A stretch of 64,000 nucleotides of DNA from Halichondria panicea (Eukaryota > Porifera > Demospongiae > Suberitida > Halichondriidae), in assembly GCF_963675165.1 (NCBI RefSeq), contig NC_087378.1:1299001-1363000 (forward strand), given 5' to 3'. Below are positions 7,114-40,590 of the stretch, piece after piece; positions within the stretch are counted from its first letter, which is position 1; each line of letters begins with the position of its first letter. The notes under the pieces are model-generated. The model searched no databases and was not told where the DNA came from. It saw only the letters and a program-made list of their open reading frames with translations. The translations under genes and the position numbers were made by a program.

Positions 7114-8251
7114 TCATGGTGTTGTGACAGGAGGACTTGTAATAGACCTCTGCCAATCATGACCGACAAACGGTATGTGTGGGTACGTCCCCAGTCCAGA
7201 GTGGGTGGAGCCTGTATCCCCATTGTAGTACACCTGCTGGTACGACGAAGAGGGAGAGATGGGGGTGAGAAGACCGCCATTTGCAAAGTATGAGGTGGAT
7301 GGAGGGGCCGAACGAATCAGAGGAGACACTCCCCCGCTGTGTTTGTAGGGGCCGGCTGAGAGGGGGGCTAACATCGAGGGGGAGCTCATATCCAGCTGGG
7401 AGAATGGACCGTCCATACCCGGGGAGGGGGTTTGGGGGGATGAGCGAATATTGGAGGGATAGCCGTATGCCGGACTGTTTTGCATGTAACTATACATCAT
7501 GTTGCCGTAAGGCATGAAAGAGCTAAACGAGTATTTCGATGCTTTCATTTCCATTTCGGCTTCTTCTGATTGACGCTTGAATTTCATTCGTCGATTCTGA
7601 AACCAGGTCTTAACTTGCATGTCAGATAGTTTCAATTTCTCGGCCAATTCACCCCTTTCGTTTGACGAGAGATATTTTTTATCTTGGAACTTTTTCTCCA
7701 GCTCTGCAACTTGCTCTCTAGAGAAGGCTGTACGTGCTTTTTTCCTCTTCTGAAAGTAGTCATCGTCATCTTCAATGGTTGCATCACTGCTAGAACCTAA
7801 AAGAATACAGTATAAGTCTCTTGTTCTCTTGTTAGTAGCAATTCATATGCAATACATTATTCACATGCATGTACAGCTTAAGCTTATAGCTGTATACTGA
7901 TTATGCTCACCACGTTTTGTTCCAGTTTTTGCATCGGAATTACTGAATGCAGAGGTTGGATCTGACTTCTTATTCTGAGAAATAAGTACAGTATGTTGAC
8001 AGTACACACAATACCTAATAGTGACGGTAGCCTTAATTTACCTCAATCTTAGTAAGTTTTGGTGGTGGAACTGGGCCTATTCTGAATGCTCCAGCACCAT
8101 TGTCGGCGGGGTGAGTGAGAGTGAAGTGATCGGGTTGCTGCTGCTCTATTGCTTTCTGTCTGAGGAGGTCATCGATACGGAAAGACTGTTGGTAGGATGC
8201 AATAATGGAGTCCTTCTTTGATGCTCCTGATTTGAGGGTGTCCAGTGCCAT
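7114..8251 (-). CDS. BarH/Bsh-like (NK-linked ANTP class) homeobox transcription factor
   Basis: Three exons on the minus strand: 8042-8251, 7911-7974, 7114-7796; phases fit and total 318 aa. The homeodomain (about residues 108-168) contains [33 protein letters not shown] and [16 protein letters not shown]. The KYLS...LAEKL and [10 protein letters not shown] pattern is shared by BarH, Barx, Bsh and Vent families, so a basal BarH/Bsh-type identity is most likely. Exon 1 carries [10 protein letters not shown] near residue 25, an EH1-like Groucho-binding motif very similar to the one in the neighbouring NK2/3/4-like gene. The C-terminus is Ser/Pro/Tyr/Gly-rich. A run of acidic residues (EDDDDY) precedes the homeodomain. 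It sits tail-to-tail with the other homeobox gene and shares strand with VPS8, whose stop is 2.1 kb upstream. Confidence 0.9.
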
Positions 8252-16300: not shown

Positions 16301-19300
16301 AGAGGATTGTTAATGATATTATTATTCATAACTGTAGTTTTGCTCTCAGGAAAATCTCTGTTGCAAGTGCACTGCAATCCACGCTATGAATAATTATTAT
16401 TGTACAGGCAAAATACTACTTCTTTGTTGGATGACCCTTTTCTTTAGCAGTAAAGATCATCTAACGAGTTGTTCAATAATAGACAGAAACCCCATCCATG
16501 GTAAAGGATCATCTAATTAATGAGTTCCTTACAAACACTTCATTCATGATAAAAAAAAATCACACCACTTTTCCCCCAGCGACTTACTGCTTGCTTGGCT
16601 CTGAGTACATTGTCAGGTGAGATGGTTCCCTTGGGGTAGGCCAGTCCAGCCAGAGTGCACCTACAGACAGGGGGCACAGTGTACGAGTTATGGCTTAGGT
16701 TGAGTCACTCACCTGATGTATACCAGTAGCTTGTAGCCAATCTTGAGGTAGCCATCTGAAAGTAAAGTAAAGTCACATTATATGCTGCACAACAGCTATA
16801 TCTTATGTACATACATTATACTTTTCACAGTGCATTGTTCAATTCAATATGAACAGTTACTATCAGCAGTTGTTGTGTAGGTCACAGGAAGGTCTGTAAC
16901 AACACGGATATATTATGCTGAGATGGGCTGATTTTGACTAAAACTAAGGCCTTCAAATGTCACAGCCCATAGCTTTATTTAAATCGGTCATACTGACTGT
17001 GCAGTTACTACAGTTACTACACAAAACTGTCACATCTACGGAGAGCAGCCTGGCTGAGAGACTAGCCAATTACCTGTTAGGGGTTTGCCTTTCTTGAGAG
17101 CGGCTCTTAACTGAAGCAGGAGCTCTATCAGTGGTGTACTGTAGTCATCCAGCCCGGCATTATAGACGTGGATCATGGCGTCAAACAGCTGCTGGGACCA
17201 ACACATCTCAATCACCTGTACAGGGAGGGAATGTGTGCACAGTTATGTGGGGAGGGGGTTCAAATTCATACACACATGGATAGATTTTTGCAATTAGTTT
17301 CCTAATGTATTTTAAGGTATCCACAGTTGCTACGAAACGGTACACAGGTAAACCAGAGGAGGTCCGACATGAGTACCTCGATTAGGCTGAAATACATGCA
17401 TCAATGACTTTACTGTTGAAGTTTGCATGTGACCAAGTCTAATCAATCGAGGTATACTCGTGTCGTATCTCCTCTGCAGGTAAACACTTGCGACGACACG
17501 TATATTTATAAAGTACTGTTTAGTGACTCACTAGTAGTACTGAGTTAATTACCTGGTGAATGTCCAGGCACTGTGGGTTCAGCTGCAAGATGCATGTCTC
17601 CAACAGCTCGTATTCCCCGCGCTGAGAGTAGTGCTCTGAGATCACATGACAGATGATCATTGCATAGCTATAGAGACACACTAGCTATAATAGCTCGATC
17701 AGGCCCTTAATCGCGAGGCAACGTTTTTGAAAAATGGAAACCTCTTTGTGAAGGCATATAAAGGGCTTATAACAAGAAGAAGGCACAGCATGCAACTCAC
17801 TATCTACCCTACGTACGACAACTGACCAATGAAATCCTTGGAAACGACCGTTCTGACTGAGCGTATCTTGTCGTCTTTGATATAGCGAGATAACTGCTCC
17901 AGAAACACAGCCTTGCTCAGATTGTCCTCGCTACTAAACGTGTCGTAGATACCACCAAACAGTAAGTCACTGCATGCAGTAAAGAGATAATGCACTTATA
18001 TATATTAGGCAATTAAGATGAGAAATGATGTAAGTACTAAAGAAATGTACACACAAACAGCTCTAGTAAATATTTGTATAGGGGAAGCAGTAGAAGTAGT
18101 ATCTGTTGAACTGAAAGATGACAAAAAACCGCCGGGAGTGGCAGGCATTCCAATAAAACTGTCGGTATACAAAACAAGTCTAGGTGCTACGTTGAAAGGT
18201 TTCACCAAAGTGTATTATATATAACAGTCACACAAAAGAATAGCATCAGTCTAGAGAAGTGAGCTGAAAACCAAGCAAAGCATGAATGTCAGAGTATTGG
18301 TAGGTGTCTACTGTCTAGTGGCAGCAGCTGCTCTTGCAGAGGTACAAGCCAGGGGAACCAAGGGTAAGCAATGCACTTACAGTTATGTAAGCTATACAGG
18401 CCTATAGCTCACTTGTCTGCAGTGGTTGACAAATAGAGTTCGTACTTTAGTAATGCTTTCTTCAGGGAAAACAAGAACAAGACCAGCAGGTGAATCTACT
18501 TTTCCCTTACCTACCACACCACCTAGAAATGTTTCACTACGAGTTACTACACCATCCATGAAAAAAGTTACTGGAGGGTCTAGTCAAGCACAAGCTACAA
18601 CAAACGAGTCTATTTCAAACCAGACAACTACAGCTGCAATGCACGAAACAGAGACCACTGCACATGCAGCTATGACCACAGTATCTACCATGAACGAGAC
18701 AGAAGCAGACAAATCGAGCTCTATAACTACTCCAACGATGGATACAGAGAGTGAGCAGATGACTCTAGTGATGGCAATAGTGGGGTCTGTAGTGGGGCTA
18801 TTGCTACTCCTCGTTGTTGTGGTATGTGTCATCACCATCTGTACTGCAGCTGCTTCTCGACAAAAGATCAAAACATCCCCAGGACTAAACAAGTGCGTTA
18901 AAATGCACTCCACACCTAAAACAGCTGCATTACTCCCACTAGTTATTTACAAGACATCCTGCAGCAATAGACAAATCACTTGTTTGAAATACCACACACA
19001 CACACATACATGCACACATTTTAAAAGTTAACAAACACACACACACACACACACAGTATCGACCATTCATTGGACAATCCAACATATGGCAACAAAGAGC
19101 AACAAGAAGAAGAGAGCGAAATGGGTGGAGCCAAGCCGGCAGAGGGACACATCTACCAGGTCTTAGAGCGACCACCACTACAGCCATCATCAGCTGCACA
19201 CGCCTATGAGATAGTGGACTGTGATACTGAAGATGACTCTAGTACTGGTACTGGTGGTGGATCACATGACTCCAGTACTGGGGTATCACAGTTGACCACC

Positions 19301-20657
19301 GCCTCATCTTGCAACAACTCATCAGACACTGAGAAGAAACGATGCACACATCACGAGTACGAGATTGTACCAAGTTTCAATAATGCTCCCAGGTCGAGAC
19401 TATCCAACTATGATCATTTGATAGAGAAAGATGGAGGAGCTACTAGCCACAGAAGACACTCGCTGAATGATCGTTTGAGTTTCAGCACAGCCACACACGA
19501 ATATGACACTATACACAAAAAAGAAATGATACAAAACACTATCAAAACGAGTGATGACTACTCTGCCCTGGAGGTCCATGGCTATGCAGTACTGAGACCA
19601 CACCCCTCTGCCACACGATCACCCGGGGGGAGGAGCATGAGCACAACACAAGACGGAGAGTACTCGCACCTTATGCATCACTAGTCACAATAACTATGCA
19701 TGCTACTATACGAAACATACAGCACTTCATAAAATGTTTGCACGCGTAACTATTATTTTGCTTATAATTATCATGCATATACCGTAACAAACAACACATG
19801 AATATAAGCACTTCTTTCACTTCCTTCAATGTTTACGATACAGATTTTCCCATAGATAGATAATTGCTAGGGAATCAATGTTTTGTTATTCAAAATTAAC
19901 TTTGTGTGTCCACAATAATTATGAAATGGTGATGTCACATGTACTACTCAATTACACCTACACACATGCACGTACCTCCTGTTGATTCTTAGACAAGCAT
20001 CGAATGCCCACTGCACCAAGGTCTGAAATAATATAATACCGACAGACATTGTAATGTGAAGTATGTGTTATCGTACATCCCTACAACACTAGGTCAAACA
20101 AAGCCAAAATAAGTGCATTATATAGACAAGCCATAATCACACAATTATAGTCCTGAAACAATAGATACAACCCAGGAAATACACACCCTACACCCTAGCT
20201 AGAGATTGGTAGCTATGAGGTTACCTTGTAGTGGAGTCGCAGCTGTCTCTCGTTAGAGGAGCTGGGTTTCTGCATCATGACCCCAATGTCCATGTACGCC
20301 TGGAGGATATCAATCACCTAGCAACAAGGGGGGAGATAGCAATCAGTAATGTCTCTGATTACAAGGTCTGCAATAGATAACTAGTTATACTTCGACAAGT
20401 AGTAAGAGTTGCTACAATGTACTACACACAACACACTAAGAAACCAACCTGCTCTGCTACTTGCTCCCTCTTTTTTTTAGGACTACCGGAAAGCCCTGAT
20501 AAATGAATAGAGAGATCATGTCACATGTTAACAACCTTGATTAGTATAGACATGCATGCACTCACCAACAACAGCATGTGCCTTTCCCTCGTACAACTCT
20601 AGCCCCAGCTGCAGGGCCTCCACAAACCGACCCTCCCTCACTAGGCGACCAAGACGC

Positions 20658-26032: not shown

Positions 26033-32645
<6,613 letters not shown>

Positions 32646-35619: not shown

Positions 35620-37480
35620 CCGCCCCACAGCACTGCAGTGTGACAGTGCTTTGTATATGCAAGTAAACCAACCTGCTGCTACTGGTATTACATCAAGTGT
35701 CTAGACATGGATGACAAAGAATATGACAGTCTTCAAAGTCTGACCGAGCCTGCATGGTGCTGTAATCAATGCTACTCGGATGCACTACCTTTACATGGGG
35801 ACACCACCATCACATTATCTCCGAGCCCATCAATAGATGCAACATCACCTATACCTACCATCTCTCCACAACTCTCAACTCCTCCAGTTTGATACTAAGC
35901 ATGACAAGGAGTCGACCTAGTGTTCAATTGGAGACGGATCGGCCTGGGAACGAGGCTATCTGTAGGTACACTGAAGTGAAGTGTTATGTTATGGACCCGC
36001 CAGCAAATTGGACCCCGCTAGGCCATGCCCATTATTTAATTTCACTTCCGGTATTTTTCTTTTAGTGGCCTAACAGACACAAAACAAAACCGAATTTCCT
36101 TTTATGATGATGGAAGCGACTAGCAAACCGCAGACCTTAATTATATATGGGCTCCTGATATTCTTATTTTTGCTTAATTTTGTTTAATTATAAATCGAGT
36201 CTACATGTACAACTGATCTGTATGATAGCCTCGTGGAAGTACTCTGACTAGACTAGCGGGCCACTCTACGTTCTATTTGTGCGAAAATCATGTTGTATTA
36301 TAATTATGTGGAACCAGGAGTGCATGAATATGAATCCTGGTAGAACTGGATATTCGGTTAATATTATTTTTATCAATGACCTACCGGAGTGCATCTCATC
36401 TGCCAATCCATTTCTATTTGCGGACGACACAAAGCTAGTAAAGTGCATCACTTCTACGGAAGACCAATTGGAATTACAAACAGACATCAACCAGTTGTCA
36501 TCCTGGTGCACTACTTGGAACATGCAACTCAATGAAGGAAAATATAATGTGCTGCGCATAACTCATCCTAGCTGGCACGAAGACAACCCTAATACACTCT
36601 ACTCAATCCACAATTCTCACCTTAACTTTGCTACAAAAGAAAAAGACCTAGGCTTGTGCATAGCCAACAACCTCTCCTGGTCACTGCATTATAACCTCAT
36701 ATCGTCTAAGGCCTACCGAGCTCTTAACCTCATCCGACGGACGATTTCAATGAAATCAGAAACCAGCACAAAAAAATCGTTATATATAACCCTAGTTAGA
36801 TCCCAGGTCACCTACTGCTCCCAAGTCTGGAGACCAAATTTGATCAAGGACATTCAAAAACTAGAAAGAATCCAGAGGAGAGCCACCAAATTCATACTCA
36901 ATGATTACTCAAGCTCATACAGATCAAGGCTGTCCGATTTGAAGCTACTACCTCTAATGTACTGGTTTGAAATACAGGACATAATGTTTCTAGTAAAGTC
37001 ACTAAAGGAACCCTCGGACAACTTCAACATAAGAGATCACATCAAATTCGTTACTGGTCGCACCCGCTTCAGTTGCAACAACAAACTCACTGTACAAGCC
37101 AATCACTACAGCGCAAGCAGACACTTCTACCTCAATCGTATCACAAGGTTATGGAACTTGATGCCCACTATGCTGATGGATATCAGCGCACCACTAACTT
37201 CAACAAAGAATACACTCCACCATTACTTCTGGGAGCACTTCAAACAAAACTTTGTCTCTGACATCCCATGTACCTACCACTTAATGTGCCCATGCAACAG
37301 ATGCTACACACGTAATTATAGCTAGCTTCACATGTAATCATTAAATTATCCAGCTGTGTCGCTCAATGCGGCACAGTCTGTCAGCTATAGTCTTTGCTAC
37401 AACAATCACTTGTTTTTATATCATTCACGTTACAGGCTGTAAAGTCTTAATAATAATAAAATAAAAAATAATAATAATAT
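35620..37480 (+). mobile_element. Truncated non-LTR retrotransposon (CR1/Jockey-type reverse transcriptase)
   Basis: 35640-35770 reads YYIKCLDMDDKEYDSLQSL then AWCCNQCYSDALP, the second half of a PHD-like zinc finger found before the endonuclease in some LINE proteins. After a gap, 36340-37325 has one open frame starting at IFINDLPECISSANPFLFAD, with the FADD catalytic box of reverse transcriptase (YADD in most), and continuing through WNMQLNEGKYNVL, KDLGLCIANNLSW, LVRSQVTYCSQVW, LERIQRRATKFILNDYSS to the C-terminal HLMCPCNRCYTRNYS and a stop. The fingers/palm start and the endonuclease are missing, so it cannot move itself. It ends in an AAT/AAAT-rich tail (37440-37480), typical of LINE 3' ends. 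Confidence 0.85.
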
Positions 37481-39664: not shown

Positions 39665-40590
39665 CAGAATCAATCAATCAATCAATATGATTTTACAGCA
39701 ATAAACATTCACATGTACAGTGATAGATTTTGATATGATTACAGGGCAATCCTGATTGAACAGGTTACCAAAACTATTATATTTACTAGCTAACGCTTAA
39801 GAATGCATTTGCAACAAGGACATTTCAAATGATATGAACAAGGGTTTTCCGAGTCAAAGTTTGATATAAAGTGAGACCAGAAGAATTGTTTCAGATTGTG
39901 CTTAATTGTTGAGGTTGAAAGTGTTAAATCTGTGGAAGGTAAATTGTTCCATAATCTGGATATCCTGTTAAAATAGAAGTGATGGTGTTTACTCGAACTG
40001 GCAAACTTATGTTTGATGGTGGTTTTGTCAGAGCTCCTGTATAGAGATAGAGACATACTTACTGATGTCAAAACGATTTGATAGGTTTTTAAAAGATGTC
40101 ACAAAAAATACAACATCCAATAGCTCCAAATGATACATCAGTGGAAGTAGGTTCAATTGAATGAGCCTCTCTTTATATGACAGGTTAGAGTTGTATCCTA
40201 CTATGAATTTAGTTGCCCTGCGTTGAATCTTTTCAAGTGAAACAATATGCTTAATGAGCATTGGGAGCCATAATTGGAAGCCATAGGAGAGCTGGGACCT
40301 TACTAGAGAGAGGTACAGTTGTTTTTTAGTTGAGATGGAGTTTGAAGTAGAAAATGTTCTCTTAATTAAACCAAGTTTCTGGTAAGCCTTCGCTGATATT
40401 GAGTCGTAGTGATGATCCCATTTCAAGTTCTCTTGCAATATAATTCCTAGATCTCTATGGAAGTTTAGTTGTTTAACACTATTACCAGCGATGCATGTGG
40501 TAGGAAGAGTTGATGGATGGTTGAGAAGAGGAAAAATACATGCTAATACACTTTGAATCGTTGAAGAAGAGAGACCATTTCATAATTTTC
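39665..40590 (-). mobile_element. 5'-truncated, frameshifted non-LTR retrotransposon
   Basis: Minus-strand frames 40028-40438 and 39790-40071 overlap and together match the C-terminal part of the LINE at 36.3-37.3 kb: WDHHYDSISAKAYQKLGLIK, LVRSQLSYGFQLW, LEKIQRRATKFIVGYNS, FYFNRISRLWNNLP and ending HLKCPCCKCILKR. A frameshift near 40050 breaks it; the same reading goes on upstream to about 40590. The 3' end is followed by an ATTG repeat (39670-39690 on the plus strand as AATC units), as in CR1-like elements. Dead copy from a different subfamily than the first. Confidence 0.85.

Follow-up and report, generated by a model that had tools for sequence, protein, structure and literature searches.

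A nested gene in an intron of VPS8

The window analysed here, a stretch of 64,000 nucleotides from the sponge Halichondria panicea (contig NC_087378.1, here C2:1299001-1363000, in a genome of 131 Mb and 39 contigs), carries the gene VPS8 on its minus strand, and an intron of VPS8 contains what we read as a real, single-copy, three-exon gene running antisense to its host. It is proposed, with a probability of roughly 0.6, that this nested gene encodes an orphan membrane protein of type I whose cytoplasmic tail offers several phosphotyrosine docking sites. The model consists of three exons and two GT-AG introns on the plus strand, joined in a single frame of 378 amino acids (aa) plus stop, with an in-frame stop just 5' of the ATG; its coding part (18282-19684) lies wholly within the VPS8 intron (Table 1). 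A sequence-only reading of this DNA had described a complete three-exon gene with fitting exon phases on the opposite strand of a 2-kb VPS8 intron. The completeness of the gene is borne out by the 378-aa frame across its GT-AG introns, and its position by the in-frame joins of the VPS8 exons and their Vps8 matches.

Five VPS8 exons were joined, and their product matches TPR_Vps8 in Pfam (E 3.2e-28, query residues 68-175) and Vps8 in a structure library (8qx8_F, E 3.8e-11, query residues 66-172), both matches being confined to the last three of the joined exons, which follow the host intron. The two exons directly before it are placed by reading frame and splice sites: Pfam returned nothing for the 47 aa that they encode, a join of 97 aa spanning the intron gave no Vps8 match, and the upstream edge of the intron, 19975, is likewise placed by its splice site and the frame. 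Further upstream on the minus strand, from 24186 down to 20890, seven open reading frames (ORFs) match, in order, the Vps8 beta-propeller profile (E 6.8e-6 to 0.081), each match falling short of the curated cut-off. Since VPS8 sequence is found on both sides of the locus, the nested gene lies inside VPS8. A search for an inverted repeat, which the sequence near 17330-17480 had suggested by eye, found none.

Table 1. Coordinates of the VPS8 and nested-gene features in the window
Feature	Position	Strand	Description
VPS8 exons	20317-20225, 20022-19976, 17969-17817, 17667-17553, 17215-17074	minus	five exons joining in one frame
VPS8 host intron	17970-19975	minus	2,006 bp; the exons on either side (20022-19976 and 17969-17817) are in frame with each other
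TATA-like hexamer	18216-18221	plus	66 nt before the ATG; unproven promoter candidate
Exon 1	18282-18363	plus	82 nt (27 codons + 1 nt); ATG, predicted signal peptide
Intron 1	18364-18465	plus	102 nt, phase 1; GTAAGC...TTCTTCAG
Exon 2	18466-18892	plus	Thr/Ser-rich stalk, membrane helix, juxtamembrane part
Membrane helix	18762-18854	plus	residues 127-157; hydropathy peak 3.29
Intron 2	18893-19056	plus	164 nt; GTGCGT...(CA)n-AG
Exon 3	19057-19684	plus	cytoplasmic tail with stop codon
NPTY (NPxY, PTB-domain type)	19076-19087	plus	residues 177-180; kept in frame by the spliced model
Eight Yxx[LIV] motifs	19154-19672 (span)	plus	Tyr 203, 220, 271, 288, 319, 338, 346 and 372

Nested genes are annotated in numbers of 2,432 in Aphrocallistes, 3,358 in Amphimedon and 5,032 in Sycon, and of 83 and 0 in two other sponges, low counts that the authors ascribe mainly to annotation programs (PMC10282587). 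Because nested genes are common in sponges, the position of this one is ordinary and is by itself no sign of function. An antisense transcript inside the host transcript might disturb the transcription or splicing of VPS8, with the protein in a secondary role, but the thousands of nested genes annotated in some sponges and the protein features, which look selected, speak against such a role; we regard it as very improbable, and any interference with VPS8 as a guess.

Support for the gene model

The longest spliced frame with at most two introns was sought by dynamic programming on both strands of the host intron and in its dinucleotide shuffles, 60 under loose splicing rules and another 60 under strict ones (codon counts of the shuffles include the stop codon). 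The shuffles had a median of 175 codons and a maximum of 247 under the loose rules, and of 98 and 159 under the strict rules, none of either 60 reaching 378; on the real minus strand no frame exceeded 257 codons, the stop counted. When codon log-odds were trained on 24 long ORFs of loci elsewhere in the genome, excluding loci of the window and loci that contain N, the model frame scored highest of the six in both exon 2 and exon 3. The exons have a GC content of 45-51%, compared with 39% in the introns of the nested gene and 32-35% in the flanking host intron. At the DNA level the genome contains one full copy of the nested gene, and among the matches listed the others sit at query positions 584-665, where the CA-rich stretch of intron 2 runs into the opening bases of exon 3. 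Rfam returned no match in the window at its gathering thresholds.

The model has weak points. On the real plus strand the longest frame under the loose rules, 465 aa, uses introns other than those of the model; the longest under the strict rules, 383 aa, uses intron 2 and the first donor of the model with a first acceptor ending at 18450, an in-frame alternative that would add 5 aa. Both donors fit 5 of 7 consensus positions, the acceptor of intron 2 is a CA run with 6 pyrimidines in 12 positions, and AATAAA is absent from the 291 nt after the stop codon, where CATAAA (19728) and AATATA (19801) are the only similar hexamers. Ordinary donors, a repeat as acceptor, an exon 1 without codon support, the missing AATAAA, a model known from sequence alone and the failure to find a paralogue in the genome would all suit a non-working gene, that is, an old or decaying set of ORFs or frames wrongly joined in the DNA of the VPS8 intron. 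Against this stand the shuffles, none of which attains the length of the model, the coding signal, which is best in the model frame of exons 2 and 3, and the motif enrichment described below, which occurs in that frame only, so that a non-working gene appears quite improbable.

Predicted membrane protein

The product is predicted to be a type I membrane protein with a mucin-like stalk of about 100 residues that lacks cysteines, and one membrane helix. Its signal peptide is judged from hydropathy (2.0) and from small residues at possible cleavage positions, e.g. after residue 19 or 23. Residues 25-125 contain 44% Ser, Thr and Pro and four N-glycosylation sequons but no Cys; the helix is followed on its inner flank by SRQKIK and a tail of 220 residues that is likely disordered. 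Hydropathy and composition agree with the earlier description of a signal peptide, a Thr/Ser-rich stalk, a single helix and a 220-residue tail. The same stalk would suit a structural or adhesive mucin-like protein in which the stalk does the work and the tail merely anchors it; we consider this improbable, as a 220-residue tail with tyrosine motifs specific at position +3 exceeds what an anchor would be.

The lack of a family match, also claimed from the sequence, holds in Pfam, where 15 families matched at E <=1, none of them above its curated cut-off. A sequence search of the structure library returned only sodium channel beta subunits (E 0.13 and 1.3), and no description of the protein was found in the available portions of the literature on sponge immunoreceptor and phosphotyrosine signalling. 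What is new here is an orphan protein of known kinds, namely a nested gene and a tyrosine-motif membrane protein.

Polypeptide GalNAc-transferase starts mucin-type glycosylation. A glycosyl transferase family 2 exon at 29690-30139 on the minus strand (E 9.7e-21), by eye like a polypeptide GalNAc-transferase, lies about 10 kb from the mucin-like nested gene, probably by coincidence.

Tyrosine motifs of the tail

The sequence-only reading had proposed a receptor-like surface protein; the single-pass surface model stands, while the tyrosine docking motifs of the tail had been missed. For eight of the nine tail tyrosines the residue at +3 is Leu, Ile or Val, never Phe or Met; the ninth is part of NPTY. 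Given that these three residues make up 12.3% of the tail, the binomial chance of at least 8 of 9 is 4e-7, and among 200,000 composition shuffles none reached 8 and one reached 7. The excess is specific to +3, the offsets +1, +2, +4, +5 and +6 having 0, 4, 1, 1 and 0 such residues for the nine tyrosines. Five of the eight sites follow the longer pattern HxYxx[LIV], for which the shuffle maximum is 3. The other five frames of exon 3 contain 1-3 such sites and 9-14 stops. As a background, one of these three residues stands at +3 of 92 of 615 tyrosines in long ORFs of other genome loci, a set from which loci of the window and loci with N were excluded but simple repeats were not filtered. The tail has several tyrosines in SH2-type contexts, beyond chance.

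The same tyrosines could be mainly endocytic, YxxPhi binding clathrin adaptors and NPxY binding PTB-type adaptors in a recycling surface mucin. The two motif types do co-occur in the tail, and PID/PTB domains are present in the genome; eight sites over 170 residues are, however, more than sorting is known to need, and the restriction of +3 to Leu, Ile or Val and the His at -2 shared by five sites also speak against it. We therefore hold a mainly endocytic function to be unlikely, though clearly less remote than the other alternatives.

Comparison with known families

The tail invites comparison with several families; on the features compared, the nested protein belongs to none of the ITAM, transmembrane-adaptor, TMEM154 and Draper/MEGF10 families. 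The immunoreceptor tyrosine-based inhibition motif (ITIM) has the pattern [SIVL]xYxx[ILV], and the corresponding activation motif (ITAM) the pattern Yxx[LI]-x6-8-Yxx[LI]. Like receptors with such motifs, the nested protein is of type I and has Yxx[LIV] sites, one of them a textbook ITIM (SNYDHL); unlike them, it has no Ig or lectin match in Pfam, and the His at -2 of five of its eight sites is excluded by the ITIM pattern. Membership among the ITAM receptors was rejected, as no tyrosine pair of the tail has ITAM spacing. The transmembrane adaptors LAT, PAG, SIT and LAX have a very short ectodomain, no signal peptide and a multi-tyrosine tail. The nested protein resembles them in its long tyrosine-rich tail, the lack of an enzymatic domain and the little or no ligand-binding ectodomain, but its signal peptide and stalk of about 100 aa led us to reject this assignment. 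The Pfam family SIT itself matched at E 0.12, far below the cut-off, and its 13.3 bits compare with 11.9-12.5 bits for three controls with shuffled stalks. The best Pfam match, TMEM154 (PF15102, E 4.5e-5), covers stalk and helix and was likewise rejected, at 23.8 bits against a curated cut-off of 30.3. With the first 200 residues it scored 26.4 bits; three controls with shuffled stalks scored 14-20.6 and another receptor-like protein 22.5, and the similarity to TMEM154 appears to be largely one of composition.

A further comparison is with the engulfment receptors Draper/MEGF10/CED-1. Like these receptors (PMC8092387), the nested protein is single-pass and has a cytoplasmic NPxY together with Yxx[LI]-type tyrosines, and exons for readers of the Src, Shark/Syk and Corkscrew/SHP-2 types are found in the genome. 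It differs from them in having no cysteine in the ectodomain (0 in residues 25-125) and no ITAM spacing, and neither EMI nor EGF-like was among the 15 Pfam families at E <=1. Membership was rejected for want of an EMI/EGF-like ectodomain.

Other membrane proteins of the same genome

In a genome search with the whole protein, matches other than the locus itself centre on the stalk/helix region, at E 0.017 and weaker. Seventeen such loci (L012-L028) matched, and the first 16 were read for tails, L028 being left out. Membrane proteins on contigs C4, C10 and C11 resemble the nested protein in having a helix exon followed by a tail with Yxx[LIV] sites; several of them differ from it in carrying, by eye, Sushi/CCP-, Ig- or kinase-like parts. 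In one C11 tail, 7 of the 8 tyrosines are in Yxx[LIV]. Pooled over 15 tail segments, 56 of 135 tyrosines are in this context where about 24 would be expected, a figure biased upward because the segments were picked by eye, and two of the 15 do not exceed expectation. For L013 and L027, two more membrane proteins from that match list, no excess was seen (1/24 and 1/16), so that not every membrane protein of this genome has a Yxx[LIV]-rich tail.

The C11 tails looked like that of the nested protein, with several shared motifs in a three-row alignment, and two of the 15 gave 4/500 and 2/500 in full shuffles. Homology was rejected, since motif-preserving shuffles did as well in 195, 887, 235 and 32 of 1000 cases for four tails and hhalign gave a probability of 3.7. 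Common descent of the nested tail with other Yxx[LIV] tails is thus not supported.

At the C11 locus (L063, C11:5957500-5967400) and in its neighbourhood, receptor-like genes for single-pass proteins, with T-rich stalks and Yxx[LIV]-rich tails, stand in an array; the tail beside the one with 7 of 8 tyrosines occurs in four strong copies within about 25 kb, three others being 75-79% identical, with one further weak match about 90 kb away, and another type of tail repeats YSKL. On C10 (L016/L065, C10:1709500-1719400), two long ORFs are by eye receptor (tyrosine) kinases or their juxtamembrane regions, and are unusually rich in YxEI/YSEA-like and NPxY motifs.

Phosphotyrosine readers and proposed function

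Searches of the genome gave 71 matches to SH2 and 9 to PID/PTB, some of which are fragments of a single domain; 30 of the SH2 matches were examined as loci. Among these are ORFs on contig C2 that by eye are SH2-kinases of Src-like type, a Syk-type C-terminal SH2 with linker (PDB Syk, E 1.1e-38), and an SH2 that runs into ankyrin repeats and is followed on the same strand, about 1.6 kb further on, by a second SH2 match, as in Shark. At one further locus two SH2 exons are followed by a protein tyrosine phosphatase exon with HCSAGIGRTG, which is the layout of SHP-2/Corkscrew. In HTK16 and SHARK, ankyrin repeats lie between two SH2 domains (PMC9486129). Src42a, Shark and Corkscrew act on the NPxY and the ITAM of Draper (PMC8092387). 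Syk-related kinases are reported in sponges (PMC9601881, PMC9486129); one kinome survey places the emergence of Syk in vertebrates (PMC8662651).

The tail motifs, the exons of reader genes and the precedent of Draper lead us to propose a mechanism in which a Src-type kinase would phosphorylate the Yxx[LIV] sites upon clustering of the protein, and tandem-SH2 readers, such as Syk- or Shark-type kinases and an SHP-2-type phosphatase, may then dock on pairs of sites; NPTY would serve a PTB adaptor or endocytosis. The trigger, the phosphorylation and the partners are inferred, as is every step beyond the presence of the motifs and of the reader-gene exons. With no folded ectodomain, the protein is probably a co-receptor or a clustering scaffold.

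Several points weigh against a phosphotyrosine docking function. Expression, the protein and its phosphorylation are predictions from the DNA sequence, and the enrichment at +3 was noticed post hoc, after looking. ITAM spacing was not found in the tail, nor was it with x6-12 between the two sites, and a single textbook ITIM is present (residues 286-291). YxxPhi and NPxY motifs can double as endocytic signals. The tail has no relative elsewhere in the genome, where its sole other match has E 0.82 and 3 stops. The Syk and Shark candidates are known from their SH2 and ankyrin parts, kinase exons not being among those read. By codon log-odds four of the six frames of exon 1 (27 codons) outscore the model frame, and for the exons of the VPS8 control their own frame scored 0.143, versus 0.170 for a frame with 9 stops. 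Because the short exon 1 ranks fifth and the VPS8 control second, the codon measure is supportive and not strong.

Retention of intron 2 would give a predicted product of 215 aa that lacks the tyrosine-motif tail and ends in a short tail with two tyrosines, neither of which has Leu, Ile or Val at +3. CA-repeat elements are able to regulate splicing. Retention of this intron, next to its CA repeat, could, speculatively, switch the product to a tail-less decoy. A fuller reading, which we put forward tentatively and as rather less likely than not to hold in all its parts, is that of a lineage-specific phosphotyrosine scaffold free of ligand domains, with repeated HxYxx[LIV] and an NPxY and without ITAM spacing, that would be read by Syk, Shark and SHP-2; it would be LAT- or Draper-like yet outside known families, one of a broad tyrosine-tailed class in this genome, and able to yield the 215-aa decoy by retention of intron 2.

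If the docking function proposed here is true, the nested protein would offer a definite candidate for an input to the Syk/Shark/SHP-2 machinery in an early-branching animal, and tails like it would be a starting point for finding the sponge receptors that feed such kinases.

Other features of the window

Two ORFs, at 36252-37325 on the plus strand and 40028-40579 on the minus strand, look by eye like reverse-transcriptase remnants of elements of the long interspersed nuclear element type; a Pfam scan, which covered the first of them, gave no match at 0.001. A (TG/CA)n array of about 540 bp by eye (about 30650-31190) has several open frames on both strands. Near the start of the window, two homeodomain genes (PF00046) lie about 4 kb apart, at 2195-2830 on the plus strand (E 2.1e-20) and at 7114-7842 on the minus strand (E 4.4e-22); by eye the pair is NK-like and may be a piece of an NK cluster.

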